This document shows, in pieces, positions 1 through 59,997 of a stretch of DNA of 64,000 nt. Below the pieces are notes generated by a model. It was not told the origin of the DNA, searched no databases, and was given only the letters and a program-made list of their open reading frames with translations. The position numbers and the translations under genes were made by a program. Position 1 is the stretch's first letter. Each line of letters starts with the position of its first letter. The stretch is taken from the NCBI RefSeq assembly GCF_029867415.1, contig NW_026705225.1:62001-126000 (forward strand), in the 5' to 3' direction. Source of the DNA: Vicia villosa. Taxonomy: Eukaryota; Streptophyta; Magnoliopsida; Fabales; Fabaceae.

Positions 1-1
1 A

Positions 2-1167
2 TGCATAGACTTTCGTGACCTTAATGCAGCTACTCCTAAAAACGAGTATCCCATGCCTATAGCAGAAATGCTAGTAGACTCAGCCGCAGGTTTTGAGTAT
101 TTGAGCATGTTGGATGGATATTCGGGATACAATCAAATTTTTATAGCAGAAGATGATGTATCCAAGACAGCATTTCGTTGCCCAGGGGCAATAGGCACTT
201 ACGAATGGGTTGTGATGCCTTTTGGTTTGAAAAACGCTGGGGCAACTTATCAAAGAGCAATGAATTCTATATTTCATGACTTTATAGAAACATTCATGCA
301 AGTGTATATAGATGACATTGTGGTAAAATCTACCTCGGGTATGAGTCATCTCGATCATCTGAGCCAATCATTCGAAAGAATGAGGAAATATGGCTTGAAG
401 ATGAATCCCCTTAAATGTGCTTTCTTTGTGCAGGCAGGTGATTTCTTGGGATTCGTAGTCCACAAAAAAGGCATAGAAATTAACCAGAACAAGACGAAAG
501 CCATTAGGGAAACCAAATCCCCATCCACGAAGAAAGAACTACAATCATTATTGGGCAAAATAAATTTCTTAAGGAGATTTATCTCTAACTTGAGTGGACG
601 CACGCAAGCTTTCTCACCTCTACTTCGGCTTAAACAAGGAAAATTCGAATGGCGTGCTGAACATCAAGAAGCTTTCGATCAGATAAAGCAATACTTGACT
701 TGTCCACCAATTCTATCTCCCCCAAATGGGAAGAAGCACATGCGCCTAAACATTTCAGCATCAGATAAAACAATAGGCAGCATGCTTGCCCAGGAGGATG
801 AGAATGGCATCGAGAGAGCCATTTATTACTTAAGTAGAGTACTCAATGATGCAGAGACTAGATATACTGATATAGAAAAACTCTGCCTTTGTTTGTATTT
901 CTCCTGTATCAAACTTAAGTATTATATAAAGCCAATTGATGTTTACGTTTCATCTCATTGTGATGTTATTAAACATATGTTATCAAAGCCAATACTACAT
1001 AGTCAAATTGGCAAATGGGCTTTGGCCCTTACTGAATATTCATTAATATTTCAGCCTCTCAAGGCAATGAAAGGTCAGATTGTGTCAGACTTCATTGTCG
1101 ACCATGCAGTGGTTGAGGGTCATCAGCATTATGTGGACTTAGAACCTTGGAAGTTATACTTCGATGG
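2..1167 (+). CDS. Ty3-gypsy pol, RT and RNase H part (partial, interrupted)
   Basis: The frame is open from the window edge (base 2) to the insertion at 1167 and encodes the central polyprotein of element A. The reverse transcriptase shows the first catalytic Asp in LDGYSGYNQI (near base 113), the MPFGLKNAGATYQRAMN block, and the catalytic YIDD box at 305-316. The connection domain follows, then a degenerate classical RNase H (ISASDKTIGSML; YYLSRVLNDAETRYTDIEK, roughly 745-900). The last codons, LYFDG, begin the second, archaeal-type RNase H and continue at 12766 beyond the insert. The in-frame extension to 1249 is LTR sequence and not part of the protein. Role: copying element RNA into DNA. 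No stop is seen, so this element may have been intact when it was interrupted. Confidence 0.9.
1163..1167. repeat. Target site duplication GATGG, left copy
   Basis: Five bases directly before the 5' LTR of the inserted element. The same five bases follow the 3' LTR at 12766-12770. Joining the flanks at one copy restores the pol reading frame. Confidence 0.95.
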
Positions 1168-1740
1168 TGTCATACCCCAAAATTTGCCCATACAATTTTT
1201 CCCATTTCAATTCAAATCAAGATGCAAAGCTCCAAGACATCCCTCCTAAACAAAGGCTCAAGAAACTAGGGTGTTGTTGCTCTGAAAAAATCATTTCATA
1301 TGGTCTATGATATCCCACACTACTCCCATACAACAAAATCGGGCGAATTACGAGTGGCACAAGTTGACTGATCTTGAGAAAATTCATAAGGACCAAATTA
1401 AGCAAACTTAAAAATTTGAGCTATTGGGCCTGGTTAATGTCCAAATATGTATATGACCTCATATGGGCCCTCTAAATTCATTCATGCTTCATAATAATTT
1501 TTCTTCTTATTTATTAATTTATTTTTTTATTTATTCAAAGATAAATTAAGTAAATTATGAGATAAATTATTTAAAGCGTATGGGCTTGAATTTAGGTGAC
1601 TTTTGGTGTCCAAAAGGACTGCAAACCGTGTAGAGTTTATTTTCCAATCAAAATCCAAGTCAAGAATAGCAAGTTTGAAGATTGGTTCCAAATCAAATCT
1701 TCATGAGATTTGAACTTTAATTCTTGACCTAAAACTGATG

Positions 1741-1756
1741 CTCTATATATATACAC
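1741..1756 (+). promoter_or_regulatory. Probable LTR TATA box
   Basis: The run ctctatatatatacac lies about 570 bp into the 5' LTR and again at 10053-10068 in the 3' LTR. It is the best TATA candidate for retrotransposon transcription. The long remainder of the LTR would be R/U5 plus leader. No transcript evidence is available. Confidence 0.45.
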
Positions 1757-2432
1757 ACTAATGCTGAAGCCTGGGGGGGAATTTTCATAAGGATTGACGC
1801 CACCAAGAGCTGAGGCGAAGTTGAAGAAACTAAAGAGAAAAACAAATTCGGACGCAAGGCCATGATGCGATTTAAGGCAAATAAGAGACCTTAATCGATT
1901 CCTGGGAATACTCTGAAGCTATTGCAATCACCATCGTCAATCTGAACATCAAGAATCGCGGCACATACGCTAACGGTTTGCCCAACTTTTCTCTATTTTG
2001 AATACCTTCATACACGAATCATAAACCAATTTTGGTTATACCTTTGCATTTATATCGATGTTTATGAGCTTTCTGCACTTTTAATTGCATTTTGGTTGCT
2101 GTTTGAAGAATCTGCCATTGCTAGGGTTCGTGTGTTCCAAAAGAGGGGTTCTGAGTCAGAATCGATTTTAGATCCAATTAACGGGTTCTTTAGACTCGTG
2201 ATGCTTTTTTGAATTGAATTGGATTACTTGTGTGCTTCGATTCACGTTTATTTGCAGGATTTAGGGATGAAGAGCTCTGGCCACGCGTGAAAACCGTGGC
2301 CGAAAGCGTTGCCTATTCTTCATAATATCCACGAAGAAGATGAAGCCAAGGCGCGCCAATTCTGGTTTTTTTTTGAATTTGGCTGTTTACTTATATTATA
2401 ACCATTGATTGATTTCCTTAACAGCATGAACA

Positions 2433-2502
2433 GATGGAGCAATTGGCAAAGGGCGCTATTGGTGAGGGATAAAACCAGGGTTCGAACCCCACTGAGGCCA
2501 AC
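2433..2502 (+). other. tRNA-like segment with a perfect pol III box B inside the LTR
   Basis: The stretch holds a block reading ccagGGTTCGAACCCcact, which matches the RNA polymerase III box B consensus (core 2479-2489). A weak box-A-like stretch (gcaattggcaaagggcg) lies about 35 bp before it. An identical copy is in the 3' LTR (box B at 10791-10801). It may be a fossil tRNA or SINE fragment, or a functional internal signal. Confidence 0.45.
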
Positions 2503-4457
2503 CCTTATTTTTAACCAAAATCATATTATGGTTTGCTAGTTGATCCGGTACACCCTTCTCGCGCGTGACCATGATGAGCCCTCAAGCAACAGCCATCAGA
2601 TCTATCTCAATTCCGATCCAACGCCTAACAAGACACTGGTCCACCATGCATTCCTAGGCTGCATACACACTAGATTTCCAGCTAAGATTTCTTTTCTTCT
2701 TTTTGTTTTATTACCTTTATTTACTCATTTTTATTTTGTTTATTTAATTTAATAATAATTCCTTTTATTTTTTCCTCTTTCTTATATATAAACTCATAGT
2801 AATTTCTTTTTTTTTACAATCATTTTATTTTTAACATCTATTTTATAATTAAATGATTAATTTGATTTAATTATAAATAATAAATCTTATGTGATTAAAT
2901 TAATTTAATTGTTTAAATATTTAATTAGATTAATATTTGTATTAGGTGATCAGATTACCTATTAATTCAGACGATTAAGATTTAATCGAAAAAACTATTT
3001 TTGCCGATTTATTAATTAGGTTGAAAACCAATAATTAATCAGATTAAAGTTATTTATTCTATTAACCTTGGTTAATTCGTACCCTAATCAGGGTTTACGA
3101 AGATCATTCCTACACTGAACAATATTTCTTGTTTCTATGTTTTTTTAGGGCTAGCAACATGATTTCTTCCGACTGCGCACCATGCCCATCAAAAAAGCTA
3201 AGTTCCTAAAACTTTTCTTTTCTTTTATTTTTATTATTTACTTTTGTTTAAATATTATTGGTATTATTTTTGCCTTGAATAGTCAATACACTCACCACTG
3301 CTTTCTTTTTTCTTTGTCAATTCTCCGATGGTCAGGGTCAATGTTTCGTGCTTCAAGGCAGATCTCTGCCCCATCAACCTTCATCACTCAAAGCTAAAGG
3401 TTCGTCAAGTCGCCAAAGCTACGAATGTCGGTAATCCTAAAACCCTAAATATTTTCTTTGTTCATTATTACTTATGTCAAACCCTATCAAGGGATCCGCT
3501 GGTTTCATTGTCCCCTTCCCCTATTATTATGTAACTGTTTATTGGTTGTATTGATTGGCCTTGAAGGCACTTAAACTGTTATATTATTTTTACTGCGTGG
3601 TTAGTAATCTTAGGGAGTGCAAGCTTTGAATCAACATAGATCACTAATTATAAGATAAATATCTGAATATAATCACGTGATTGTTGCACACACGCACGCT
3701 TTTGGGTAACCTCTCTGTTGCCTTGTTGCCTGTTGCCTGTTGCCTTTGTGTTTTTGCAGAATAAGCTATGTCCCTCGAATTTGAGGATACCTCAGCCATG
3801 CTGCCTCGATAGTTAAAGGTCATACGACCCTAAATGATGCTGCCTTCGATACACAATATGACCTCGACCCTCGGAATTTGCCTACGGAAAAAGGCTGAGG
3901 TATCTTCTGGTTGCCTAACGAAAAATGGCTTATTCTGATCCTTGCCTTAGACTACCTGCCCTTCTATGGCATGGGACAGTCTTATGGCAAAGGATGCTTC
4001 GACGACCCTTCAACCTCCAAACGAAAGGCTCCCTGCCCTCTTATGGCAAGGATTGACCCTTTCATTCTGAAAGGCTAAAAAGAGACCTATCATCTGAGTT
4101 TAAGGTAATTGCCCCTAATTGCCTTGCAATGCTCATCTTTAATATTCTTTCTCACAATTCTTCGAAAACTGGCTACGCTCATTTACGAGCTAAAGTCCAC
4201 TTTTTCTTTCATCTACATTTTCTAAACAAACGAGCAAGCAAAGCAATTAAGAGCCCATGGAAAACCATGGATGCAAAGGGTGCCTTACACCTTCCCTTTG
4301 CATAAATTACCCCCCGAACTCAGATTTCTTTAAAAGGTTTTTTTTTCTGTTTCTTTTAGCCTTTCTGATTTAGTTTGGATAAAATAAAAGTCGGTGGCGA
4401 CTCTTGCTTACCGCGACATTTCGATTATAAAAAAGTCAGTTCACCGTATTACAGAAC

Positions 4458-4475
4458 TGGCGACTCTGCTGGGGA
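4458..4475 (+). other. Primer binding site, tRNA-Arg type
   Basis: TGGCGACTCTGCTGGGGA begins four bases after the 5' LTR end. Its complement ends in CGCCA, as expected for the 3' end of a tRNA. Ogre elements of legumes are known to use tRNA-Arg with this kind of site. Confidence 0.85.
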
Positions 4476-5272
4476 AATTCGATTAAAAGAGGGGTTACCT
4501 TAAAAGTTTAGGATTCGCTTAATTGTTTTCTATTGTCTGCTTTGCTTGCTTTATTTTTCAGGGACGTTTTGGGAAAATTGAAGGACGAATCCTATTCCCG
4601 GATTCAAGAACACTTAAGATTAGGAGTGGCATAGTCATGGCGACCTCTTTCACATATGTGGAAGATGAGTCAATATGAAGTTCACGCTTGAGTTAGGACT
4701 CCATAGCATATGCACACCTTTCTCAAATGAGGGGGGTCTATGTATGTGTCTGTGGGTGCGCCGGAGCTCAAGGACCTTTAGTTACCCTTAACCCATCCTG
4801 GCCTTTAGGAACGTAGTGGGGGGACTACTCTTGACAAATGTTAAGAACTAGTCGCTACCCGATGCTACAATTCAGATAGGTCCTTTCTCAAAGTATCATT
4901 GCATGATGCAAATGTATCATGTCCGAGGGTGCTTTAGAAGGGCTGACAATTCTGGATAACTTTTAGAACCTGTTGCAGAAATTTCCTTATCCATAGAAAT
5001 GCCCTTGGGAAGGACACCTGATCAGACTCCATGCAAGCCTTAAGCCAAAAATTGTGTGACTTGTGTGACTTACTTGTGTGTGCTACTAACCCTTCTATTT
5101 CATGGCAGGATTGGCTAATAGGACATTTCGTCCTTATTACCTTATGTCTCGCTTAATGCATTACATTCGCATGACATCATGACATCATAACATCACATGT
5201 TAACTAACCCTTTCAAGGATCTTAGGAATTTAAGGCGCACAAATTCAGATGCCCTTATCAAGGACTAATTTT

Positions 5273-5465
5273 TCATCAGGGGGCAAGAGGATTTATTTTC
5301 CTCTGGCCACATGTCTTCCAATTCAGAGATTCTACACCTATCAAGGGGCAAGAGGATTTATTTTCCTCTGGCCGTATGCCTTCTAGTTCAGAGACATCAT
5401 ACCTATCAAGGGGCAAGAGGATTTATTTTCCTCTAGCCATGTGCCTTCCAATTCAGAGGTATCCC
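5273..5465 (+). repeat. Three tandem copies of a ~66-bp unit
   Basis: Each unit starts ggggcaagaggatttatttt and continues to a gccttccaattcagag-type end. The core AGAGGAtttatttTCCTCT is an inverted repeat, so each unit can form a small hairpin. Confidence 0.85.
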
Positions 5466-5921
5466 GAATCAGAGGCTATGACCCACTGGATATGGTGAGC
5501 TTGATTCCCATAGAAGAACACCCAAGAATCAGAATTTTTCAAACAAAGATGCTACCAAATCATTTCTAATGTTTCTAACTAAATTCCGTAGAGATCCTTG
5601 AAAACATTACATTTGCATTCATCACATTGCATAACAGGTTTCCGCAATAAGTTTCCCATTCTCTCTCGCTGTTTATTTCAGCACAACTGAAATCTCGAGC
5701 AATTATTCAAAAAATCTTCAGGCTCGGAATACCCGATCCCAGACTTTGATTCTGAACTCACCCAAGGGGCAAGAAGAATTGAAGGCACTCCTATTCTTGG
5801 GGTACAATTACAATGCGAGATGCGCTTATTATTCGAACAATCCTGGTTATGATGTAAAGGATGGTAGACCATTGAAGCGTGCGATTAAAGATTTAATCAT
5901 GACACTCAAATCAGAAAAGAC

Positions 5922-6280
5922 CACGATAATGGAATCACGACAACTGAGTCACGACAACAAAGTCACGACAACTGAGTCACGATAATGGAATCACGACAAC
6001 AAAGTCACGACAACTGAGTCACGATAATGGAATCACGACAACTGAGTCACGATAATGGAATCACGACAACTTATTCACGATAATGGAATCACGACAACAA
6101 AGTCACGACAACTGAGTCACGACAACAAAGTCACGACAACTGAGTCACGATAATGGAATCACGACAACTGAGTCATGATAATGGAATCACGACAACAAAG
6201 TCACGACAACTGAGTCACGATGATGGAATCACGACAACAAAGTCACGACAACTGAATCACGACAACTGAGTCACAACAGT
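5922..6280 (+). repeat. Minisatellite of a 14-bp unit (about 25 copies)
   Basis: Three interleaved unit variants of the form TCACGAYAAYNNAR (tcacgataatggaa, tcacgacaactgag, tcacgacaacaaag) alternate without spacing. A 14-bp unit shifts frame every copy, which argues against coding. Confidence 0.93.
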
Positions 6281-8684
6281 CAATTCACTCATATGATCCA
6301 GAGGCTCAGGATAATCGAGCCAATGAATTCTAACACCACCCTTCTGACACCCCTGTGGTGATCACCGCTCCTATGCCTAGTCATGACAAGATTTATGGAC
6401 GTCTCGACGGACAAACTTTTGGATCATTAGATCTACTTTCATTTGCAAGTTCTTTCCTGTTTATGTAAACATTCGACTTATGATAGAAATTATCTGTTTT
6501 AATAATTATCATCAGTGCATTGCATATGTTTGTCCTGAATACATTATGTCGTTATCACTCATTTTAAATTACATACTTTGCATATGTCTTGTGTTTATTC
6601 AACTCCTGCTAAGCTGTAAGCCTTTTGAGGGAGGATGACGAAAACGATACCGCAACCCCATACAATATGCTTTTGAACGGACTATACTGACGATGTACAG
6701 GCATTGTTTCAATTCCTAAACAGTGGAGATATAAGGATGATAATCCCTCGTCAACCCCTTTGAGCCTAAGGAGTAGAAGTTTCTTTTTGTACGAAAAAAC
6801 CGCATTTTTAACCTGGGGCAGGGTAGTTCTCAGTTAATTTGGCTGTGCATTCTATTTTAAGAGAATCATTCAGTACACCTTTCAACAAAGGTTTCAATCA
6901 CAAGCGTTCAACCGCACACATCAAAGAAGTGTTGGAAATGTCAAGACAATGACGGTTCATCAATCATCAAACAAGGCAGTCAATATCTTTCAAAAAGAAA
7001 AAAAATGAAAAAACATAAATACAAAGAAAAGCCTGCTAAGTCAAAAATCAAAAAGAAAACTTAGGCAAAAATCAAGGCATCCCGCTGAATGTAAACTCCA
7101 AAATAGACAGTTCAGGCAAAAGTTAGGGATATCAAAAAGACAAAAAAGAGAAGTCAATAAATTCCTGAACAACACAATGTTGTGACCACCAAAAGGAAGA
7201 AGTGACTGCCACCTCAAAAGTTCTTTTTGCTTGTGAATCGTCATCATTATCAAAGGTGCAAATCCAAAAGTCTCTTGGAACCTGAATGCATAAGTTGAAT
7301 TAACTGAGCTTAGGATTGAAGAACATCACGAAGAAGGGGATGGGTATAAATAAATTTTGAGCCATTATCCTTTGTTTCTTAAACCGTGAACCAAGCCACG
7401 TTACAACCCTCGAAAGTCCTAACTGAAGCATGGTTAGTTCGAAAGCATACTGCCGCCAAAAAGGTATCCTGACTCCTTAAGGTTTACCAAAAATGCTGAG
7501 TTGATATTTCATTTTCTACAAACGTCACGCTGTTACAAATATCATGTTTTTACAAATATCGCACTTTTACACCTCCTGTGTAATGTTTTTCAAAAAACTC
7601 AAGACAGACATATGCACTGCATCTCATGAATTCATTATTAAACATATTCTGCTACATAATTTCAAATGTTAGCATCAGAAAGAACTTGCACAGGTTATAA
7701 CTAATGACTAACAGTTATCCCGACAGACAAGATCACTCTAGAAGCAATGTCTCCTGCGTATACAAGGGGCATGACACGTTTTGCTCAATCAATCTGGGGC
7801 AATCCAGTCAAGATTCCAAGAATCTCTCAAATGCCATACAGTCAAAGGCATACATCTCAAGTGGGTTTCAAAATATTTCCCGATCAATCTGGGGAAATCA
7901 AGTCAAGATTCCGAGAATCTCTCAAAGATGCCAAAAAACAATCAGGGGCATGCATCCAAGTAAATCTTAATCTATTTCCAATCAACATGGGACATTGTCC
8001 TGGACCTGTGATTGCTAGGGGCATGTCGCCCATAATTCATATCTCATAAAGTCCTCGCGAGGCGAATATTTCCAAAGTCCCTACTAGCAGGGGCAAATCT
8101 AGGCAAGTCCAGTTTGACATCTTGATCAATACTTAGTGGTGTGTCCTAATCAAATCCAGGAATGGTAGTTACTATAATACTGGGGGCAACTTTCACCCAT
8201 GTCTCCCCACAGACCCGGGTTCACGAGATCATATCCCCACAGAGTAATCATTAAGAAGATATCTTCAAACGCTCTCGACAAATATATGGTTCCCCAACAA
8301 AGTTTACATGTTCAACACTGCTGGTTCTCCAACACTTTGCTCTTCTCCAACATGGGCTACTAATACTCTTATCCCCAATCAAGGTCCATCTAGTTACTAA
8401 TCATCCCCAAGCAAGAATCATAAATTCCCAGCTGAGCATCTTCAAATAAGATCAGACATCAAAATCACGAAGACATAGAGATTTATTTTCTCAATCAAGA
8501 CAACATAAATCACAAACATATTCATACATTGCATACATTACCTCATAATGAATTCATCCATAACATACAAAGTTTCTCTTTTATTCTGAGGGACTCATTA
8601 CATAATACATGCATCATGACATTGCATAACTATACCTATTGCAGGATACAAGCACAGACAAATGAACGAAATCTCCAACTTTCC

Positions 8685-9290
8685 AAGATCTAATTCAGCT
8701 ACTACGAATAGTACTGACACGGTCAACGCTCGATCTAATTCATTTACCACGAACGGTAATGACACGGTCATTTTCAAAGATCTAATTCAGTTACTACGAA
8801 CGGTACTGACACGGTCAACACTCAGAGATCTAATTCTATCATCACGAACGGTGTAGACACGATCAATGACAAACTAAGTCTAATTCAGCTACTACGAACG
8901 GTACTGACACGACAGAAGATCTAATTCAGATACTACGAACGGTACTGACACGATCAAATTTCAGAGGTCTAAGTCTATCATCACGAACGGTGTGGACACG
9001 ATCACTGACCTTCCCAGTCTAATTCAGTCACTACGAACGGTGCTGACACGACAAGAGAATCTAATTCTATCATCACGAACGATGAAGACACGATTATCTC
9101 CTCAGATCTAATTCTATCATCACGAACGATGAAGACACGATCATCTTTCCAAGATCTAATTTTATCATCACGAACGATGAAGACACGATCATCTTTCCAA
9201 GATCTAATTCAAGTATCACGAACGATACTGACACGATCAATTCCCAAGGATCTAATTCATCTACCACGAACGGTAATGACACGGTCAACG
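8685..9290 (+). repeat. Minisatellite of a ~46-bp unit (about 13 copies)
   Basis: Units begin gatctaattc and contain tatcatcacgaacg followed by a gacacgatca-type tail. Unit length varies from about 40 to 52 bp, and three nearly identical units are near 9100-9215. The position just upstream of the polypurine tract matches the hypervariable 3' untranslated region described for Ogre-type elements, a known source of satellite DNA. Confidence 0.92.
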
Positions 9291-9467
9291 CGCAAACAAC
9301 ATCTTCTCAAAATTCAACTACCAGATGGCATCCACAAGCCCATCTCCGACAAAAGTCCCTACTTCAAATAGGGCAAATTTCTTGGTATTCTTATATTCAA
9401 TCATCTTCCACCTTCAGATACCGACTGGCGCGCAAACCACTCTACATCTTCAGGTCTAAGATAATTG

Positions 9468-9479
9468 AACAGGGGCAGC
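9468..9479 (+). other. Polypurine tract of the LARD element
   Basis: The short purine-rich run aacaggggcagc lies directly before the 3' LTR start at 9480, in the position where plus-strand DNA synthesis is primed. Confidence 0.65.
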
Positions 9480-12400
9480 TGTCATACCCCAAAATTTGCC
9501 CATACAATTTTTCCCATTTCAATTCAAATCAAGATGCAAAGCTCCAAGACATCCCTCCTAAACAAAGGCTCAAGAAACTAGGGTGTTGTTGCTCTGAAAA
9601 AATCATTTCATATGGTCTATGATATCCCACACTACTCCCATACAACAAAATCGGGCGAATTACGAGTGGCACAAGTTGACTGATCTTGAGAAAATTCATA
9701 AGGACCAAATTAAGCAAACTTAAAAATTTGAGCTATTGGGCCTGGTTAATGTCCAAATATGTATATGACCTCATATGGGCCCTCTAAATTCATTCATGCT
9801 TCATAATAATTTTTCTTCTTATTTATTAATTTATTTTTTTATTTATTCAAAGATAAATTAAGTAAATTATGAGATAAATTATTTAAAGCGTATGGGCTTG
9901 AATTTAGGTGACTTTTGGTGTCCAAAAGGACTGCAAACCGTGTAGAGTTTATTTTCCAATCAAAATCCAAGTCAAGAATAGCAAGTTTGAAGATTGGTTC
10001 CAAATCAAATCTTCATGAGATTTGAACTTTAATTCTTGACCTAAAACTGATGCTCTATATATATACACACTAATGCTGAAGCCTGGGGGGGAATTTTCAT
10101 AAGGATTGACGCCACCAAGAGCTGAGGCGAAGTTGAAGAAACTAAAGAGAAAAACAAATTCGGACGCAAGGCCATGATGCGATTTAAGGCAAATAAGAGA
10201 CCTTAATCGATTCCTGGGAATACTCTGAAGCTATTGCAATCACCATCGTCAATCTGAACATCAAGAATCGCGGCACATACGCTAACGGTTTGCCCAACTT
10301 TTCTCTATTTTGAATACCTTCATACACGAATCATAAACCAATTTTGGTTATACCTTTGCATTTATATCGATGTTTATGAGCTTTCTGCACTTTTAATTGC
10401 ATTTTGGTTGCTGTTTGAAGAATCTGCCATTGCTAGGGTTCGTGTGTTCCAAAAGAGGGGTTCTGAGTCAGAATCGATTTTAGATCCAATTAACGGGTTC
10501 TTTAGACTCGTGATGCTTTTTTGAATTGAATTGGATTACTTGTGTGCTTCGATTCACGTTTATTTGCAGGATTTAGGGATGAAGAGCTCTGGCCACGCGT
10601 GAAAACCGTGGCCGAAAGCGTTGCCTATTCTTCATAATATCCACGAAGAAGATGAAGCCAAGGCGCGCCAATTCTGGTTTTTTTTTGAATTTGGCTGTTT
10701 ACTTATATTATAACCATTGATTGATTTCCTTAACAGCATGAACAGATGGAGCAATTGGCAAAGGGCGCTATTGGTGAGGGATAAAACCAGGGTTCGAACC
10801 CCACTGAGGCCAACCCTTATTTTTAACCAAAATCATATTATGGTTTGCTAGTTGATCCGGTACACCCTTCTCGCGCGTGACCATGATGAGCCCTCAAGCA
10901 ACAGCCATCAGATCTATCTCAATTCCGATCCAACGCCTAACAAGACACTGGTCCACCATGCATTCCTAGGCTGCATACACACTAGATTTCCAGCTAAGAT
11001 TTCTTTTCTTCTTTTTGTTTTATTACCTTTATTTACTCATTTTTATTTTGTTTATTTAATTTAATAATAATTCCTTTTATTTTTTCCTCTTTCTTATATA
11101 TAAACTCATAGTAATTTCTTTTTTTTTACAATCATTTTATTTTTAACATCTATTTTATAATTAAATGATTAATTTGATTTAATTATAAATAATAAATCTT
11201 ATGTGATTAAATTAATTTAATTGTTTAAATATTTAATTAGATTAATATTTGTATTAGGTGATCAGATTACCTATTAATTCAGACGATTAAGATTTAATCG
11301 AAAAAACTATTTTTGCCGATTTATTAATTAGGTTGAAAACCAATAATTAATCAGATTAAAGTTATTTATTCTATTAACCTTGGTTAATTCGTACCCTAAT
11401 CAGGGTTTACGAAGATCATTCCTACACTGAACAATATTTCTTGTTTCTATGTTTTTTTAGGGCTAGCAACATGATTTCTTCCGACTGCGCACCATGCCCA
11501 TCAAAAAAGCTAAGTTCCTAAAACTTTTCTTTTCTTTTATTTTTATTATTTACTTTTGTTTAAATATTATTGGTATTATTTTTGCCTTGAATAGTCAATA
11601 CACTCACCACTGCTTTCTTTTTTCTTTGTCAATTCTCCGATGGTCAGGGTCAATGTTTCGTGCTTCAAGGCAGATCTCTGCCCCATCAACCTTCATCACT
11701 CAAAGCTAAAGGTTCGTCAAGTCGCCAAAGCTACGAATGTCGGTAATCCTAAAACCCTAAATATTTTCTTTGTTCATTATTACTTATGTCAAACCCTATC
11801 AAGGGATCCGCTGGTTTCATTGTCCCCTTCCCCTATTATTATGTAACTGTTTATTGGTTGTATTGATTGGCCTTGAAGGCACTTAAACTGTTATATTATT
11901 TTTACTGCGTGGTTAGTAATCTTAGGGAGTGCAAGCTTTGAATCAACATAGATCACTAATTATAAGATAAATATCTGAATATAATCACGTGATTGTTGCA
12001 CACACGCACGCTTTTGGGTAACCTCTCTGTTGCCTTGTTGCCTGTTGCCTGTTGCCTTTGTGTTTTTGCAGAATAAGCTATGTCCCTCGAATTTGAGGAT
12101 ACCTCAGCCATGCTGCCTCGATAGTTAAAGGTCATACGACCCTAAATGATGCTGCCTTCGATACACAATATGACCTCGACCCTCGGAATTTGCCTACGGA
12201 AAAAGGCTGAGGTATCTTCTGGTTGCCTAACGAAAAATGGCTTATTCTGATCCTTGCCTTAGACTACCTGCCCTTCTATGGCATGGGACAGTCTTATGGC
12301 AAAGGATGCTTCGACGACCCTTCAACCTCCAAACGAAAGGCTCCCTGCCCTCTTATGGCAAGGATTGACCCTTTCATTCTGAAAGGCTAAAAAGAGACCT

Positions 12401-12765
12401 ATCATCTGAGTTTAAGGTAATTGCCCCTAATTGCCTTGCAATGCTCATCTTTAATATTCTTTCTCACAATTCTTCGAAAACTGGCTACGCTCATTTACGA
12501 GCTAAAGTCCACTTTTTCTTTCATCTACATTTTCTAAACAAACGAGCAAGCAAAGCAATTAAGAGCCCATGGAAAACCATGGATGCAAAGGGTGCCTTAC
12601 ACCTTCCCTTTGCATAAATTACCCCCCGAACTCAGATTTCTTTAAAAGGTTTTTTTTTCTGTTTCTTTTAGCCTTTCTGATTTAGTTTGGATAAAATAAA
12701 AGTCGGTGGCGACTCTTGCTTACCGCGACATTTCGATTATAAAAAAGTCAGTTCACCGTATTACA
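9480..12765 (+). repeat. 3' LTR of the non-autonomous element (3286 bp)
   Basis: Same length and, in every block compared, the same sequence as 1168-4453. It ends CGTATTACA and is followed by the right target duplication. Confidence 0.95.
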
Positions 12766-12770: not shown

Positions 12771-14559
12771 TTCAACGCATAGAGAGGGTACTGGGGTTGG
12801 AATATTGATAATTTCTCCTGATGGAATTCCAACAAAGCTCAAGTTTAAAATCGAAGGTCCATTATGCTCCAACAATGAAGCTGAATACGAAGCATTATTT
12901 GCTGGACTTGAGGCTTTGTTAGAATTGGGGGCAACCAGAGTCGAAATTAAAGGAGACTCCGAATTGGTCATCAAACAATTGACAAAGGAGTACAAGTGTA
13001 TCAAAGAGAATTTGATCATGTATTTTGTCATCGCAAATAGGTTACTCAAGAAATTCGAATATGTGGAATTAAAACACGTATCAAGGGTGAATAATCAGGA
13101 AGCGAACGACTTGGCACAATTAGCTTCAGGATATAAAGTATCAAAAGAAAAGTTGGAAGAATTGATTGAAGTAAGAGGAAGAGCAATGTTTACTAAACTT
13201 TCGCCAAGTGATCTAGAGAACTCACGATTGGGTTATGCCAACAAAGAACAATTCGAAGTACTAAATATAGACTCATTGGCAGACACAGATTGGAGGAGTC
13301 CAATTATTAGCTACCTAAAAGACCCTTCGACGGATACAGATAGGAGAATCAAGTATAGAGCATTGTCATATTTTTTGATGGGAAATGAATTATTCAAGAA
13401 AACTCCTGAAGGGGTATTGCTGAAATGCTTGGGTGAAGCAGAAGCATATTTAGCTCTGTCGAACGTACATAGTGGGGCATGTGGTGCACATCAAGCAGGG
13501 CACAAAATGAAATGGCTCTTGTTTCGTTATGGGATGTATTGGCCTTCGATGTTAAAGGATTGCATAGAGTTTGCGAAAGGGTGCCAAGAGTGCCAAGAAC
13601 ATGCAGGTATCCAACACGCTCCAGCGAACGAATTAAGTACGATAGTAAAACCATGGCCTTTCAGGGGATGGGCATTAGATTTGATTGGAGAAATTCACCC
13701 CAAGTCATCTAAGGGTCAAAGGTACATTTTGGTAGGAATAGACTATTTCACAAAATGGGTCGAAGCAATACCACTGGTAAATGTGGATCAAGAGGCTGTG
13801 ATTGAGTTTATTCAGAAACACATTATATATAGGTTTGGAATCCCAGAAAGTATAACAACTGATCAGGGATCAGTCTTTACTGGACGAAAAATGCAAGATT
13901 TTGCCAGAGAAATAGGTTTCAAGTTATTTACTTCTACACCTTATTACGCCCAAGCAAATGGACAGGTTGAAGCAGCAAACAAAATAATAATTGGCCTTAT
14001 TAAGAAACATGTGGGAAAGAAACCTAAGAATTGGCATAAGACTTTAGATCAAGCGCTCTGGGCTTGTCGAACATCTCCAAAAGAAGCCACAAATACAACT
14101 CCTTTCCAGTTGACGTTTGGACATGATGCAGTACTCCCAATTGAGATATGTTTGCAATCAGTAAGAATACAAAGACAAGCAGACATTCCTCCCAACGTAT
14201 ACTGGGAGTTAATGATGAATGAGTTAGTAGATTTGGACGAAGACAGACTTCGAGCACTGGAAATGATAAAAAGGCAAAAGGAAAGAGTGTCCAGAGCTTA
14301 TAATAAAAAGGTGAAAGGTAAAACTTTTGTTAATAATGATTTAGTCTGGAAAGTTATTTTACCTATAGATCGAAAGAATCAGGCACTTGGTAAATGGTCC
14401 CCACATTGGGAAGGACCCTTTCGAATCTTGAAAGTATTCTCGAACAATGCTTACGAAATTGAAGAATTAGCAGAAGATCATAGGATCTTGAGAGTAAACA
14501 GGAAATATTTGAAGAGATATAAACCAAGTATGTACGAAGTAAGGATTGCAAAGACGTAG
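12766..14559 (+). CDS. Ty3-gypsy pol, second RNase H and integrase part (interrupted continuation)
   Basis: This continues the polyprotein broken at 1167. The apparent start codon at 12706 lies in the inserted LTR and is an artefact, so the true sequence resumes with DGSTH at 12766. An archaeal-type RNase H comes first ([38 protein letters not shown], about 12766-13130). The integrase zinc finger follows (HQAGHKM ... CQECQ, about 13490-13605), then the catalytic core with its first Asp in ALDLIG (about 13673), second Asp in TTDQGSVF (about 13856) and Glu in GQVEAANK (about 13960). The C-terminal part contains a WEGPFRI block. No chromodomain is present. The protein ends at a TAG at 14557-14559, in an otherwise open frame. 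Confidence 0.92.
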
Positions 14560-14809: not shown

Positions 14810-15544
14810 CTAGTTAATCCTTTGGTCTAAATTGTCCAAAGACAACACAGGAGAAGGTTCAGCCTCGAACATATCCCTGGCTCCAGAATCACGCATCCTT
14901 CTCACTACGCCTTTCCTAAGAAAAATGTAACTAAGGAGTCTCCCGTAGGGAAGACAAGTCACACTCCCTCGACGGTCAACACCGGCAGAGACAGCTTTAA
15001 CAAGTCCTTTGAAGATCATTAAAGGAATGTTAATTTTCCTCCCTCGAAGACCACATAGGATGAACTCCAAGTCTTCAACCATGATGTTGTTTTCGTCGAT
15101 CCGCCGAGGTTGGAAGTTCCCCACGAGCATCTGGTGCCAGATCCTGATGACTTTGGCACTGAAGCGATCATTGTCCATAAGAGTTCTCAACATGAGATGA
15201 GTAGTCATGCTAAAACTGTTGTCATCAAAAGTTTCACCAGAGTTATTGCATTTTATCAGGTTGGCAATAGTGGTGGGAGTAATGCTGAGACGAGCATGTC
15301 GAATTTCAGAATCAATGGTGGTCCTACCTTCAGGATCTATGCGTAAAGACGCATTCATCCAGAATTCTGCCACCATGTTGGGGTAAATAGCACCCTCCAA
15401 GACTTCTTCAAAATAGAAGTCCAGTTCTTGGTTGACAAACAGGGTTTCGATGTTGATGAAATGGCGAGTAAGTTCATCCTCAGAGAGTCTGAACTCGCCT
15501 CTAATGAGGGCTTTGATGTCGTTAAAGAAGAGAGGTTCAGCCAT
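14810..15544 (-). CDS. Antisense gene 2 of element A, 244-aa putative plant transposon protein
   Basis: A single open frame of 244 codons on the strand opposite pol, ending about 250 bp from the integrase stop. It matches the homologue at 59266-59997 along its whole length, with shared blocks FVNQELDFY, YPNM, SLRIDPEGRTTI, ITPTTI.NL, CNNSGETFDDNSF, IMVEDLEFILCG and TCLPYGRLLSYIFL. The pattern resembles the family called putative plant transposon protein in plant genome annotation, recognised from memory of its LPYG-type motif and not by a search. No membrane segment or signal peptide is seen. A TATA-like box lies about 107 bp upstream. Its role is unknown; it may act with the PMD protein encoded next to it. 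Confidence 0.75.
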   Translation of the reverse strand: MAEPLFFNDIKALIRGEFRLSEDELTRHFINIETLFVNQELDFYFEEVLEGAIYPNMVAEFWMNASLRIDPEGRTTIDSEIRHARLSITPTTIANLIKCNNSGETFDDNSFSMTTHLMLRTLMDNDRFSAKVIRIWHQMLVGNFQPRRIDENNIMVEDLEFILCGLRGRKINIPLMIFKGLVKAVSAGVDRRGSVTCLPYGRLLSYIFLRKGVVRRMRDSGARDMFEAEPSPVLSLDNLDQRIN

Positions 15545-16103: not shown

Positions 16104-19100
16104 CTAGTTAAAATCTTCAGGGAGATCCGTTTTGATCTTCAAGTATTGAGTCTCCCACGAAGACATACGAAGCTCGATTAGTGCCCGTTGTTTCTTCAAA
16201 CTTTCGATTTTTGGCACTAATTTCTGTGCAGTCTCGAAATGTCTAATGCCCGACTGCACCACTTCGAGCAAATCTTGTTGGTTAGATTTTTGTATGGCTG
16301 CCTGACAACGTTCAGCTTCTTTTATCTTGCCCTCGAGTGCCTTTATCTCTTGTTTCCAGGAGTTGATGTTCTTCTCATAATCATCAAAGGCCTTCTGATT
16401 TTATGAATGTTTGAGCTTGAGGGCCTCACCTTGTTTCGTTGCGTCTACAGCAGAGTTCCATGAAGAGTCATGAGAGGCCTTTGTCTCAGATAGCTCTTTT
16501 TCGACATTTTGCCTTCGAAGAATGTTGGCTTGGAGTTGCTCGAGTAGAGAGCCTAACAGAACAATTACCTCTGAAACTTCTGTGGAAACTTGAAGCAAAT
16601 CTACCTTCTTTAGAAGTTGATTTAAGTTGTGACTCTTAATAGGTTCCCGGTTGAGGACGTCTACAAGATTGACCCCAAAGAATCTTTCTTTTATTTGTCG
16701 GAGGAGGCTAGGAATGTCTTCTTTATCACCAGATTCTACAGTTGCAACTGGAGAGACATTAAGCTCCGAAGGCGAAGAAGTATTCGCATCCATGATGGCC
16801 TTTAAGAAACTAAGAGGATCAGTTTGCTTAAGCTGTTCCAGCTCCAAAGGAGTAGGCTTCACAGGGGCAAGCGTCGAAGTTGTCTCAGGAATGGTTTTCG
16901 TCTCAAGAGTCGAAGTCCCTTGAGGATCTTGTTTTTCTGGTTGAGAAATTTCCTCCATAGCATCTCGCTCCGACGCAGTATCTTCACTGTCATGTGTTTG
17001 GGGGTTCACATTGTCGCTGCCTGAGAATGGGTGATCTTCTTCCAAATTTTTGTTTTGATGAATAGGTGGGGATTCGTCAGTGGAGTGACTTTCTTCGACT
17101 GGTTCATTAGGCAATATGGTAGCAATTGGCCTAACGTCTTCAAAGACTGGCGAAAGAACATGAGTTTGATTTTGAGAGGTACCTATGTTAAACAGAGCAA
17201 AGTTAGTCATAAAAATAAACTTTTGAAGAGTTTAGTTAACGAAAGTTAAAGTTTGACAATTACTGTAAAGTTTGTCAACATTAATGGTAAAGCCATGGTC
17301 CTTGAAACCTGAAGTGGCAGTGCCAGCGTCTTCCTGCAATAACAAGGTAAATGTCAGTTTAATTATTTGGTTAAGATCATAAGATAATATGTGGGTTGGA
17401 ACCCAAATACCTTGGTTGGGATATTGTCTGGACTTGAATTATGACTTTCCACAACGAAAGCATTGCTAGCAGCTTTCAAAGGAGACTCTTCAGAGGACGC
17501 TTTATCACCAGGAGAAACAGTTTTAGAAGGGCTTATCCTTTTCCCTTTTCTTGAAGGGGTAACAGCTTTTTGTCTCTTCTTGTGTCCTTGTCTAGTTTGG
17601 GGAGGAGATTTATCTTCACCATCCGAAGCAGCTGTCGAGGAAGCTTTCCGCTTGGAACCTGTTGGGGGTTTCGAGCTCTAGAAAATAGATGATAAATAAG
17701 ATGGATACTACTCACAGATTGTACGAAATCAAGAATATGAGATGAGTATATACCGTGGGCTTCTTGTCAGTAACGATGGAATCACTTTCACTTGGTTTGT
17801 TGCTCTGAGATGTCCCAGAATCTTTTTGGGCAGAAGCTTCCTTGATCTTCCTCCTTCGTGCAACAGCTGTAGTTGAAACTGAAATCAGTATATTAGCAAA
17901 GAAAAGAAAAGTCAGTCGAAAAGATTGTCTTAATCCAAACCTTCAGGTATCGGGGTCAGGACACGAACATGTTTAAGATCTATATGAAGATGTCCTTTGA
18001 AAGTATCCAAGGTGTGCTTAGTCGGAACCACTCGTTCAGCGCGTTTTTTGGTACTCTCTTGAAGAATTTTGAGAGCATTCCCACACACGAACCAGTCTGG
18101 GAAAGGAGGACTTAGAGCCACACCAAAATCAGCACTTGGTAGTGGAGGGAATTTTGGAGGATTAAGTTTGAAAGCCACTTCATAACGTAGTTCTGGTCGA
18201 ACATACGAGGGCAATTTCAACTTATCCAGTTTGGCGGAAAACTTTTCGCGCAAAATGACTGCAGCCTCACGAACGGTCCGACTAAGATCATCAGGCCTGT
18301 AGATAGTTTCAAAGAACTTTTGAAAAGCTTGGATTTCTTTAATATGAGTTGAAGTACCTTTTTGAAAATTCTCCTGCACATCAGTAAAAGCTGCAGTTAG
18401 TGCTTGAGCAAGGCTATCAGCATCAAAGATTTGGGAGCTATAATAATCCGTCCACCATTGATGAAAGTCTGGTGTAGAATAAAAAGCAGGTTCGAAAGAG
18501 ACAGGAGGAAGTTTGGTGGTGCCAACGTATTTGTTGATTTTTGTTTTACATTCTTCTTCAGTCAAGTACAAGGTATGGAAACACATATGGTTTCTTTTCT
18601 CATATAAACACTTGGGTTTTATTTGAACCAACCCAAACTGTCTCGAGACCAAATTTGGTTGGTAGCACATGAGAATGCATTGACCTTTTGATGGTCGAAG
18701 GCGATGGGAAAATAACCTTGGAGTCAGAAAGGCTTCCCAAATTTCCATAGACTCAGTTTGTTGATCCTGAGATGTTGATGGAAATTTTCGAGTAAACCAT
18801 TCAGGACCTATTGTTCTGTGTACAAAGGGAGCCATAGAAGGATCGAACTGGTTACGCCGGGCAAACATCATCGAATACGCCAAGAAGTGTTCACGAAGCT
18901 TTCCAATTTCTTCTTTTGGAGTTAGGTAAGCTAACCTGGTCCCTTCTATAGTTCGATTCTTGATTTTGCTATCCTCCTCATTGACATTTCCTCGAAAGGG
19001 AAGGTGATTTTCGAATGTAGCATTAAGCCACAGTTGTAATAGCCAGAAAGGGCCAGCATAAAGTAAACTACCAGATTTAAAATTCTTGGTGAGGGATGCA

Positions 19101-20029
19101 GCTTCGCTGAGGTTTTCATAAAGAGACCCTAAAAGCAGTTGGCTGAGGTTGAGCTTTTTTCCAGCATGCAACTGATTAGCCATGCAAAGATATCTCTTTG
19201 CAACTTGAATAGATCTTGAACAGAAGGCACATCGTGAAAGCCATAGCGCTAGAAAAGCAATATGTTCTTCATCGGATACTGCCGTTTCGGTGGTAATATG
19301 ATGCTTCTGGATGAATGCAGTATAAGTGACTTGTGAGTCATTAAAACCAATAGTATCATTATCCATTTCGTTAGGATCGAAGGTTTCGCCAGTTGGTCGA
19401 AGTCCTGTAATCGCAGCCACATCAAAAAGAGTAGGGGTAACCATTCCGCAGGGGAGATGGAAAGTGTTGTGAGAAGCATCCCAAAAGTGAACTGCTGCTA
19501 CTAACATGGGTTGGTTGTATTCTAAACCTGTCTTGGACAGTTGAATCAAATCGTATATTCCTAACGATTTCCAGAAGGATTCTTTCTGTTTCTCTACTTT
19601 TTCTAACCAGGCATAGTACAAATCAGGATCCTTGGCCAAAGGGATTGATCTAAACACTTTTACAGAGTTGGTCATATAGTTTACCCTAATTTTCGCTAAA
19701 GCTAAAGGAGTTTCAGTGGGAGTTTTTTCCATGTTAGCAGATTTTCCTGAGGGAGAACAGCCATCTTCATCTATCTTAATTTTGCTAACTAATGGTCTGG
19801 TCTTGTAATAAGCGGGGAAGAATTTATTCAGAGATGGGATATTTTCACCTGGTAATGGACCCATAAAAGCGAGAGATTTTCCAGAAAGTTCAAAGGGAAT
19901 GATTACCTGGGAAGCGTAAATAGCGCGTATTTCTTCGGTGTTAGGGTTTTGAACGTGCTCTTGTTCCCCAGACTGTGTTGTTGATTGGAGCTTCAGAGCA
20001 GGTTGAAGAACATTTGAAGATGAAGCCAT
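16104..20029 (-). pseudogene. Antisense gene 1 of element A, five-exon plant mobile domain protein with one internal stop
   Basis: Exons on the minus strand: 20029-17941, 17878-17754, 17677-17411, 17333-17264 and 17182-16104, with GT-AG introns. Exon 1 encodes a plant mobile domain (PMD), with LYYAWLEKVEKQKESFW and FHLPCGMVTPTLFDVAAITG as landmarks around residues 135-215. Exons 2-3 are basic and Ser/Pro/Lys-rich (ARRRKIK), as in a nuclear linker. Exon 5 is acidic, then forms a long coiled coil ending near DLPEDFN. The spliced frame is about 1210 codons, with one in-frame TAA at 16401-16403 inside the coiled coil, so the last ~100 residues are lost. PMD proteins (MAIN/MAIL family) occur both as host silencing factors and inside transposons. 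The function here is unknown. Confidence 0.82.
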
Positions 20030-20481: not shown

Positions 20482-21472
20482 TGTTAGCTGAAGATTTCGT
20501 TTCATATTATTTATCCTTCGAAGGAGTAGAAAATCGAAGGAAAGATGGTTACTGATGGCCATCCCTTAAAAATAAAAGAATGACTACTGATGGTCATGCT
20601 TCGAGAGTAAAGGTTTCTAAGTTCACTATGAAGATAATGAATACTAAAAGTTAGCGAAAAGTATGTGTCTTCGGGGACTTAGACAAATTTGTAAATATAT
20701 TCAAGTATTACTACTTAGCGTGTTTTTTCGTAGTGTTTGTTTAATACACTGCCACGCGTCGTAGACAGACTCAGGCGGGAAGATTTGAAATTCGAAGACG
20801 GTTTCATAACTGTCCAAGTAACAGATGGCATCGCTAGGAGTTTTTATGAGAAACGTGGCAGCAGATTAGTATAGGACCGTTAAGGTCGAAACTAGTATAA
20901 ATAGGAGTCTTAATGTTAGGATTCTGTGTGTTCATTTTGTACAAATCACTCACATATTTACTCAAGTATCAAGCGTTAAGAGAAAGAGTTCGCTGAGAAA
21001 ATGTACGTATGACACCACCATTTTAATACATGTGTATTATCCTTTGTTTTTAAATATCTTCCAGAATTACTGCATTTCGTTTACTTCTTGTCATTTACAT
21101 TTCTGTATCTTTACTTTAATGTCATTTACTTTCGAATTACTTTTCATGTTATTTACTTTCAAAGTCTTTTACATTTCTGCAATTTAAGATTCTTTACGTT
21201 TCAATAGTCCTTTTAATTTTCTATGTTATGTTACTTATCTTTTCGTTGAAGTCACATTTATATGTAACAAAGTGATTGTAAAGACTATTTGTTCTTTAAT
21301 CGAACAACTCTTATTGAAGAAGACAAATAATGAATATGGTTCGAATAAACATTGATAACAATCTTCTTGACTATGTGTCCTAGGATCAATCTAGTCGATC
21401 CTGCGAGTAACCAAATCATATTTATTATAGTTTGGAAGACTAGCGGTTGTTTACCGGAAATCACCGTAAACA
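20482..21472 (+). repeat. 3' LTR of element A (991 bp)
   Basis: Begins TGTTAGCTGAAGATTTCG and ends ACCGTAAACA. A TATA box (tataaatag, near 20895-20903) lies about 410 bp in. An inverted, diverged copy is at 53383-54325. Confidence 0.88.
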
Positions 21473-53382: not shown

Positions 53383-54325
53383 TGTTTACGGTGGTTTCCG
53401 GTAAACAACCGCTAGTCTTCCAAACTATAATAAATATGATTTGGTTACTCGCAGGATCGACTAGATTGATCCTAGGACATAGTCAAAAAGATTGTTATTC
53501 GATCCATGTTTATAATTTGTCTTGAAAATAAGAATTACTCAATCGAAATAATAAAGGTTAGCAATCACTTAGTTATACGCGTAAATATAACTCCAGCGAA
53601 AGGTAAGTCAAGATAAAACATAGAACAAAAACTGTAAAAGTGCAAGAATCTTAAAATGCAGAAATGTTAAATACTTCAAAGATAAATAACATGAAAATAA
53701 AGAATGCAGGAATGTAAATGACAAGAAGTAAAACGAAATGCAATAATATCGAAAGATAGTTGAAAATAAAGGAAAATACACATGTATTAAAATGGTGGTG
53801 GTGTCATACGTACATTTCTCAGCGAACTCTTTCTCTTAACACTTGATACTTGAGTAATATGTGAGTGATTTGTACAAAATGAACACACTGAATCCTAACA
53901 TTAGAACCCTTATTTATACTAGTTTCGACCTTAACGGTCCTACGCTAATCTAATGCCACGTTTCTCATGAGAATCCTCGGAAAGCCACCTGTCTCTGGAC
54001 AGTTATGAAAACTTCTTCGAATTTCAAATCCTCCCGCCTGAATCCTCCTTCGACGCGTGGCAATATAACTTAACATTAAAATACCACAGAAATACACTAA
54101 GCATCAGTACTTAACATATTTCGTAAAATTTGTCTAAGTCTCGAAGATATACACTCCTACTAGCTTCAGCATTCACTATCTCCGTTATGACTTAAAAATT
54201 CTTCATCCTCGAAACATGGCCATCAGGAGCCATTTTATCTTCAAAGACGGTCATCAGGAACCATCCTCCTTCGAGTCTTCACCCTTCGAAGGATCATATT
54301 TGCAAAACAAAATCTTCAGCTAACA
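53383..54325 (-). repeat. 3' LTR of element B (943 bp)
   Basis: Reads, on the minus strand, TGTTAGCTGAAGATTTTG to ACCGTAAACA, as in element A. The TATA box tataaataag (minus) lies near 53909-53918. Shorter and visibly diverged from the 991-bp LTR of A. Confidence 0.85.
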
Positions 54326-54760: not shown

Positions 54761-57700
54761 ATGGCGTCTTCCTCAAATGTTCTTCAACCAGCTCTGAAAC
54801 TTCAACAATCTACACAGATGGGGGATCAAGAGTGTGTACCAAACCCAAATTCTGCGGAAGTGCGTGCCATTTACGCTTCTCAGGTAATCATTCCTTTTGA
54901 ACTTTCTGGGAAAACTCATGCTTTCATGGGTCCGTTACCAGGAGAAACTAACCCTTCTCTGAATAAATTCTTTCCTGCTTATTATAAAACTAGGCCGTTA
55001 GTTAGTAAGAACAAAATAGATGAAGATGGCCGTCCTATTTCAGCAAAGCTTGATGATACGGAAAAATCTTCGACCGAAAACCCTTCAGCCCTAGAGAAAA
55101 TTAGGTTAGACTATGTAACCAATTTTGTGAAAGTTTTTAGGTCAATTCCCTTAGCAAAAGACCCTGAACTATACTATGCCTGGTTGGCAAGAGTAGAGAA
55201 ACACAAGGCTTCTTTCTGGAAAGAACTGGGCATTTATGATTTAATCCAACTGTCCAAGACTGGTTTAGAATACAACCAAACCATGTTAGTTGTGTCAGTT
55301 TATTTTTGGGATGCTTCCCACAACACTTTCCATCTTCCATGTGGAATGGTCACCCCCACGCTTTTCGACATAGCTGCCATTACGGGGCTTCGACCAACTG
55401 GAGAACCCTTCGACCCCAACGTCATGGACACTGATACTATTAACTTCAATGAAGCAACTGTTACTTATACTGCATTCATTCAACAGTATCATGACGAAAA
55501 TAATGAGGTAGTCTCAGACGAAGAGCACATTGCTTTCTTAGCCTTATGGCTTTCGAGGTGCGTCTTCTGTTCTAGGTCCATACAAGTAGCAAAAAGATAT
55601 CTCTGTATGGCTAATCAACTCCATGCCGGAACAAAACTAAACCTGAGCCAGTTAATTCTAGGGTTTCTCTATGAGAACCTAGGTGAAGCAACAGACCTTG
55701 TAAAGAATTATAAAACAGGTTCTTTGCTTTTCGCTGGCCCCTTCTGGCTGCTACAACTATGGCTCAATGCTACTTTCGAGACTCAGCTCCCATTTCGAGG
55801 TGTTGTGAATGAAGAAGATCCAGATATTAAAAATCGAACTGTAGAAGGAACCAGGTTGGCTTCGCTAACTCAAAAAGAAGAGACTGGTAAACTTCGCGAG
55901 CATTTTCTAGCATATATCATGATGTTTGCTCGGTGTCATCACTTCAGCCCTTCGATGGCTCCGTTCGTAAACAGGACAGTGGGTCCCGAATGGTTCACTC
56001 GAAAGTTTCCACCAACATCTCAAGATCAAGAGACTGAATTCATGACTATTTGGGGAGCTTTCCTTACCCCAAGATTATTCTATCACCGTCTTCGCCCCTC
56101 CAAAAACCAATATGTTCTCCTCTGCTACCAACCAAATCTGGTTTCGAGACAATTTGGACTGGTTCAAATAAAACCCTAGTGTCTATACGAGAAAAGGAAC
56201 CACATGTGTTTGCACACTTTATATCTGACTAAAGAAGAATGTGAGTCAAAATTGCTAGATATGCTGATGTGACCAATCTTTCGCCTATCCCTTTCAATCC
56301 CGTATTTTACTCTACTCCAGATTTTCAACAATGGTAGACGGATTATTACACCATGCAAATCTTTGACGCCGAGAGCCTTACTCGTGAACTAACTGAAGCT
56401 TTTGCTGATGTGCAGGAAAATTTTCAAAAAGGTACTTCGACTCATATTAAAGAAATACAAGCCTTTCAAAAGTTCTTTGAAACCATTTACAGGCCTGATG
56501 ACCTTAGTCGGACCGTTCGTGAAGCTGCAGTCACTTTGCGCGAAAAGTTTTCTGCTAAAATGGATAAGTTGAAACTGCCCTCGTCTGTTCGACCAGAACT
56601 GCGTTATGAAGTGGCTTTCAAACTTAATCCTCCAAAATTCCCTCCACTGCCAAGCGCTGATTTTGGTGTGGCTTTAAGCCCTCCTTTCCCAGACTGGTTC
56701 GTGTGTGGGAATGCTTTTAAAATTCTTCAGGAAAGTACTAAAAAACGCGCTGAACGAGTGGTCCCGACTAAGCATACCCTGGATACTTTCAAAGGACATC
56801 TCCATATAGATCTTGAACATGTTCGTGTCTTGACTCCAATACCTGAAGGTTTGGGTTCAGACAAAATTCTTTGACTAACGTTCCTTTTCTGCTGAAATAC
56901 TAATTCCAGTTCCAACTACAGCTGTCGCTCGAAGGAGAAAGATTAAACAGCTCCCTGCGCAGAAAGCTTTTGAAGTTTCGCAGAGCAACAAGCCCAGTGA
57001 GAGTGACTCTTTCACTGCTGACAAGAAAACCACGGTATATACATACTTTATCTTTCATTTGTATGTTATATGAATCATCCTTACCTTACCCAATTTATAT
57101 TTTCAGAGTTCGAAACCTCCACCACATTCGAAGCGAAAAACCTCTCCAGTAGTTGTCTCAGATGAGGATGACAAATCTCCACCTCGAACCAGACAAGCCC
57201 AAAAGAAAAAGCAGAAGGCCGCTACTCCTTCAAGAAAAGAAAAGGGATCTGGGTCTTCGAAACTTACTTCACCGGGTGACAAGGTATCTTCTGAAGAATC
57301 ACCTTTGAAAGGTGGTAGTAACGCTTTTGTTGTCGAGAGCCACAATTCGAGCCCAGATAACGTCCTAACTAAGGTATTTGGATTTCCCAACCTGCTCATC
57401 TTTATAAATTTTTAACTTAAAATAATTAAGTTAACGTTTTACCTTATGATTGTAGGATGATGTTGGCACAGCCACTTTCGACCTCAAATCCTTCACTCTT
57501 AATATTGATCTTGATAAACTCCAAGGTAAATGCATATTCTTTTTACAGCGAAGAAATTTCTTGCAACTTTCCTTACCATGACATGTTCTAATTATTCCAT
57601 GCAGGTAAATCTCATGTGCTTTCACCAGTGATCGAAGACGCTCAACCTCTTGCGACTATCATTCCTAGTACAGCAGTCGAAGGGAGCCATTCAACTGATG

Positions 57701-59265: not shown

Positions 59266-59997
59266 ATGGCAGTACCCCTCACTTATAACAATATCAGAGC
59301 ATGCATCAAAAAAGAGTTCAAGGTTTCTGAAGAAGACTTTGAAAACAACTCCATAAGCATTAGTGCTTTCTTTGTCAACCAAGAGCTTGATTTCTATTAT
59401 GAAATCTTGGAGGGACCAGTTTATCCCAACATGCTGGCTGATTTCTGGATGTTTGCGTCTTTACGCATAGATCCAGAAGGTAGAACCACCATAATCTCTG
59501 AGGTTCGAGGTGCCCACATTAGGATCACTCCCACCACTATCTCTAACCTTATGAGATGCAACAACTCTGGGGAGACCTTTGATGATAACAGCTTCAACAT
59601 GACCACTCATCTTCTGTTGAGGACTCTCATGGACAATGACCCTTTCAGCGCCAAGGTCATCAGAATTTGGCACCAACTCCTTGTGGGTAATTTTCGTCCA
59701 CGAAACCATGATCAAAATAGCATCATGGTGGAAGATTTAGAGTTTATACTCTGTGGCTTTCGTGGGAAGAAAATCAACTTTCCTTTGATGATCTTCAAAG
59801 GGCTTGTTGAGGCAGTCTCTATGGCTGCTGCTCGTCAAGGGGTTGTGACATGTCTTCCATATGGGAGACTCCTATCTTACATATTCCTCAAAAAGGGTAT
59901 AGTGAGAAGGATGCGCAGCTCTGGGTCCATGGATATGTTCGAAGCGGAGAGCTTGCCCCTGCTGGCTTTGGAAGGTTTAGACCAGAGGATCAACTAG
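59266..59997 (+). CDS. Antisense gene 2 of element B, 243-aa putative plant transposon protein
   Basis: An intact single-exon frame homologous end to end with 15544-14810. Shared blocks include FVNQELDFY, YPNM, SLRIDPEGRTTI, CNNSGETFDDNSF, MTTHL.LRTLMDND, IMVEDLEFILCG and TCLPYGRLLSYIFL. It starts at the ATG at the same place as in A and ends at TAG 59995-59997, one base before the copia insertion. The reading frame is open in both elements while the neighbouring PMD gene is broken in both. No membrane or signal segment. Probably a member of the putative plant transposon protein family; role unknown. Confidence 0.78.
   Translation: MAVPLTYNNIRACIKKEFKVSEEDFENNSISISAFFVNQELDFYYEILEGPVYPNMLADFWMFASLRIDPEGRTTIISEVRGAHIRITPTTISNLMRCNNSGETFDDNSFNMTTHLLLRTLMDNDPFSAKVIRIWHQLLVGNFRPRNHDQNSIMVEDLEFILCGFRGKKINFPLMIFKGLVEAVSMAAARQGVVTCLPYGRLLSYIFLKKGIVRRMRSSGSMDMFEAESLPLLALEGLDQRIN

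Follow-up and report, generated by a model that had tools for sequence, protein, structure and literature searches.

A plant mobile domain gene with four predicted introns on the antisense strand of a Tat/Ogre-type LTR retrotransposon of Vicia villosa

The stretch of DNA analyzed here (the window) comprises 64,000 nucleotides of Vicia villosa contig NW_026705225.1 and contains part of an LTR retrotransposon, element A. The whole element occupies C302:56147-83472 of the 2.03-Gb assembly and is 27.3 kb long, including a nested element of about 11.6 kb. It consists, in order, of the 5' LTR (C302:56147-57137, outside the window), gag-protease, reverse transcriptase, RNase H, the nested insertion, an additional RNase H, integrase, an antisense Transposase_32-like gene, an antisense plant mobile domain (PMD) gene and the 3' LTR. 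The gag-protease and pol reading frames (locus L009, 5204-9355 and from 9231, respectively) overlap when taken stop to stop, and the protease match scores under its cut-off. The reverse transcriptase and RNase H are found at 1..1162 on the plus strand (Pfam RVT_1, 2.9e-28; RT_RNaseH, 1.2e-18), in a frame that extends upstream of the window. The additional RNase H and integrase follow at 12771..14556 on the same strand (RVT_3, 1.7e-19; rve, 6.7e-15). The order RT_RNaseH, RVT_3, rve is that expected of Ogre/Tat elements. According to the available part of the source, the additional RNase H is common to Ogre and Retand (PMC6317226).

The 3' LTR (20482..21472, plus strand) is 991 bp long and identical to the 5' LTR at 986 of 991 positions; five sites differ, corresponding to a K2P distance of 0.005. 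The element is flanked by GTTAC and ATTAC. The insertion of A is recent, with an age of about 0.2-0.4 My at the rates assumed. The nested LTR element that splits A (1168..12765, plus strand, exact ends set by eye) has identical repeats of 3288 bp, a GATGG target duplication and internal tandem repeats; its single internal reading frame that was scanned (9086-9619) has no Pfam match. A search of 12768-21500 against Rfam gave no match.

The first antisense gene of A, situated between integrase and the PMD gene (14813..15544, minus strand), encodes 244 amino acids resembling Transposase_32 (PF20167, E 1.1e-9, 38.8 bits). Its counterpart in a second element, B, lies at 59266..59997 on the plus strand (1.6e-10, 41.6 bits). 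Both copies fall short of the curated cut-off of 45, and a precomputed Transposase_32 domain is present on 8 of 12 database relatives. The three antisense reading frames of A that were scanned gave no match to Transposase_28 (PF04195), the domain of Retand TRP28, at E up to 0.1. A structure model of the Transposase_32-like protein (pLDDT 38) was of no use.

The PMD gene of A runs on the minus strand from 20029 to 16104 and is divided into five exons by four introns, all of which have GT..AG ends. Exon 1 (17941..20029) carries the plant mobile domain (PF10536, 4.4e-36). It is followed by intron 1 (17879..17940, 62 nt), exon 2 (17754..17878, 125 nt), intron 2 (17678..17753, 76 nt), exon 3 (17411..17677, 267 nt), intron 3 (17334..17410, 77 nt), exon 4 (17264..17333, 70 nt), intron 4 (17183..17263, 81 nt) and exon 5 (16104..17182). 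The exons sum to 3630 nt, or 1210 codons including the final stop, and there is one earlier in-frame stop, at codon 1111 in exon 5. The T content is 38-47% in the introns and 19-29% in the exons. The PF10536 score is 125.2 bits in A and 109.8 in B, well above the cut-off of 34.9. Together with the exon borders, this confirms the description in the earlier note of an antisense PMD gene with four GT-AG introns between integrase and the 3' LTR. In A as in B, each antisense gene has a TATA-like box 113-134 bases before its start codon, which would fit promoters of their own.

Element B is in the opposite orientation. Its 3' LTR (53383..54325, minus strand) was delimited by the end of the A-B similarity and by inspection of the ends by eye. 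Its PMD gene (54761..58665, plus strand) also has five exons, at 54761-56848, 56910-57034, 57107-57373, 57456-57525 and 57605-58665. Alignment of the exons bears out the earlier report of a second copy in which exons 2-4 measure 125, 267 and 70 bp, as they do in A. Two stop codons and a change in length by one base break exon 1 of B, and neither of the two PMD copies is intact. The window contains no pol of B. A related pol in locus L011, about 9.7 kb beyond the Transposase_32-like gene and on the expected strand, is taken to be that of B because of its place, strand and similarity. The two are parted by the sequence at 59998-64000 and L011:1-5714.

The PMD genes of A and B have diverged under purifying selection, with a dN/dS of 0.13 over 1195 codons. 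In exon 1 the ratio is 0.11 (dS 0.98). In exons 2-5, read in the spliced frame, it is 0.14 (95% bootstrap 0.09-0.20). When exons 2, 3 and 5 are read in the two shifted frames, the values are 1.42 and 1.10; exon 4 is too small for a judgement by itself (0.33, 0.13-1.33). There are no gaps between A and B in exons 2-4, gaps of 6 and 12 in exon 5 and one single-base gap in exon 1, compared with gaps of 1-3 in each of the four introns. Judged by selection in the spliced frame, and by ungapped exons 2-4 beside gapped introns, the predicted gene structure is beyond chance. For the Transposase_32-like gene dS is 1.42 and dN/dS 0.12, and for the pol of A compared with that in L011 dS is 0.73-0.84 and dN/dS 0.04-0.05. 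If the L011 pol is that of B, then the divergence of the PMD gene, of the Transposase_32-like gene and of pol covers comparable periods, and the antisense genes would have accompanied the element for roughly the time that pol has, with faster protein change.

The end of PMD exon 1 (17925-18517 in A, 56272-56864 in B) is less diverged than the remainder, dS being 0.375 in the last 193 codons compared and 1.82 in the middle. This suggests an exchange between lineages.

A search of the genome produced 7,264 preliminary candidates, to be distinguished from confirmed copies. The best-scoring 64, a selected set that includes A, all cover exon 1 from end to end with 98-100% identity, and 54 of them have no stops. 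The 12 best-scoring copies after A (rows 2-13 of the scored list) were examined for introns and exon lengths. All 12 retain the four introns, with GT..AG in 48 of 48 introns, and exons of 125, 267 and 70; being 95.5-99.2% identical to A, they are not independent of it. A chance find, copy C (loci L030 and L032), belongs to the lineage of B, to which its LTR is 97% identical. In C the LTR, PMD gene, Transposase_32-like gene and oppositely oriented integrase occur in the same order, with an exon spacing resembling that of B. A sample of 20 loci from the PMD list was poor, only one (L030) having a copy of the A/B family. The integrase, its strand being read in A and C, is opposite to the PMD gene in these two. 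The PMD module is retained by other members of the family, namely B, C and the 12 further copies.

Taken together, the PMD gene has probably long been an accessory gene in a family of Tat/Ogre-type LTR retrotransposons. It lies opposite to gag-pol and would be expressed by splicing of an antisense transcript of its own. Genes that move through RNA are expected to lose their introns. In the genomic RNA, however, the GT..AG introns of an antisense gene would appear as their complements, CT..AC, and so would not be removed. The retained introns would then be copied into each new insertion, while the antisense mRNA would begin at its own TATA-like promoter. The idea that antisense orientation protects the introns fits the transmission of this gene with its introns, the protection itself being something that we infer. 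The earlier note described the gene as transmitted cargo. It does belong to the element and is carried with its introns in A, B, C and all 12 further copies, but "cargo" is an understatement because the gene is under purifying selection, which suggests that it is a functioning accessory gene. A multi-intron gene long kept in a retrotransposon would represent a simple way round intron loss, and would offer a test bed for antisense accessory genes.

The earlier note also proposed that a host PMD gene had been captured, introns included, which would require an event at the DNA level. The multi-intron structure does resemble that of a host gene, and other PMD loci are present in the genome. However, the one other PMD protein compared, that of L008, which may or may not be a host gene, shows 26% identity over part of the sequence. 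The A-B divergence is old, related proteins occur in other legumes (among the best 120 of 166 matches), and a review, in the part available, gives the opposite direction, PMD genes presumably being derived from Ty3/gypsy elements (PMC8616336). Capture is therefore unsupported and appears unlikely, although the sequences compared do not fix the direction of transfer.

It is quite improbable that the four "introns" are not spliced, with exon 1 alone forming the protein and exons 2-5 representing a separate or decayed frame. An in-frame stop is met in intron 1 of A, where the predicted database proteins P0001 and P0002 also end; a third prediction, P0005, reads through intron 1, and all three could reflect an unspliced form. 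Nevertheless, purifying selection acts on exons 2-5 only in the spliced frame, and the junction of exons 2 and 3 in P0005 falls on the same border, as judged by eye. Moreover, in proteins of pea, soybean and clover the PMD continues into a similar C-terminal part (by eye, from a global alignment without a score). There is virtually no chance that these are host PMD genes near which retrotransposons happen to have inserted, since the LTR pair and near-matching 5-bp flanks enclose the gene in A, and the shared order of LTR, PMD and Transposase_32-like genes, which recurs in B and C (in C with integrase), already contradicts this.

As an accessory gene of the element, the PMD gene might encode a DNA-binding regulator, possibly an anti-silencing factor, a function that we infer. 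One form of this idea, put forward tentatively and open to considerable doubt, is that the protein is a putative VANC-like anti-silencing factor, which would share the DNA-binding fold of VANC21 and recognize TTCGA sites across its own element. The motif was noticed by eye, and the sequences in which it was noticed also served to test it. An initial scan had dealt with 6- to 8-mers, not pentamers, against a higher-order background. Against a first-order background, TTCGA ranks first of 511 pentamers in A (108 found, 31.5 expected) and first of 507 in B (55 and 15.0). In the non-coding parts of A it ranks ninth of 443 (16 and 6.8). It is also in excess in copy C (27 and 8.7, 40 and 8.9; flank, 9 and 10.5) and in L011, which holds the related pol (39 and 15.1). 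As A, B and C are relatives, these counts are not independent. The nested element (17 and 18.5), the tested remainder of the window (33 and 50.9) and, of the 20 loci, 19 taken together (249 and 318.3) show no excess.

Compared with shuffled sequences, the excess is found in gag-protease (33 against 17.2), the additional RNase H and integrase (16 against 6.0) and the LTRs of A (13 against 3.25) and B (12 against 3.25). It is absent from the Transposase_32-like gene, the reverse transcriptase-RNase H part, the region upstream of the PMD gene, the intergenic stretch and the 5' leader. In the PMD exons it is marginal, the count being reached in 31 and 29 of 500 shuffles. Of 41 TTCGA sites, 23 are kept between A and B, as are 96 of 323 other CG pentamers. 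VANC21 (PDB 9lnj) differs in belonging to a DNA transposon, VANDAL21, and the identity is 6%; its motif, as far as the available part of the report goes, occurs mainly in non-coding tandem repeats (PMC5735166). Sequence searches of the PDB gave nothing, or matches without VANC21, the alignments of the two best being of low complexity. A viral structure library gave no match at E up to 0.001, and a scan of viral contigs no relative. Were the VANC reading true, a retrotransposon would keep, antisense and with introns, a self-defence of the kind found in VANDAL DNA transposons, and the PMD, a domain of unknown function also present in host silencing proteins, would be tied to DNA binding.

The PMD gene of A and B varies on a published theme, that of antisense extra ORFs; its introns and its possible likeness to VANC merit follow-up. 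An antisense, spliced gene near the 3' LTR is also known in HTLV-1 (HBZ), where protein and host are unrelated. The Ogre elements (Tat Ty3/gypsy) share the additional RNase H between RNase H and integrase and have PMD as an extra ORF, reported in 57% of elements (Neumann et al. 2019, PMC6317226); a multi-intron antisense gene is not described for them in the available part of that paper. Their LTRs, given as 1.9-6.5 kb in the available text of another report (PMC6431247), are longer than those of A. The accessible part of PMC9289625 likewise describes PMD as an extra domain, in the consensus sequences of Ty3/gypsy elements from ten species as well as in MULEs, and does not state orientation or introns. 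Antisense extra ORFs are reported for Grande (gene23), RIRE2 and Retand (TRP28) in the portions available of PMC7264820 and PMC11963269. As in A, the antisense gene lies between pol and the 3' LTR; gene23 is driven by a promoter of its own and encodes a nuclear protein. TRP28 contains a different domain, Transposase_28, and these portions do not describe introns in the antisense genes. The 2020 review asks authors to search for antisense and spliced transcripts (PMC7264820, part available). A PMD gene that is both antisense and multi-intron is not reported in the portions of the literature searched.

Other PMD loci (L012, L015 and L022) belong to a different PMD-carrying transposon group. MuDR transposase matches lie beside PMD in all three, that in L012 being below the cut-off, and none was found in the L031 reading frame (five frames scanned at four loci). 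Elsewhere in the window, a long inverted repeat with TA-repeat arms is situated at 23465-23899, and 24666-25925 and 27700-28979 form a direct repeat (about 1.3 kb, 96% identity), possibly a small LTR element.
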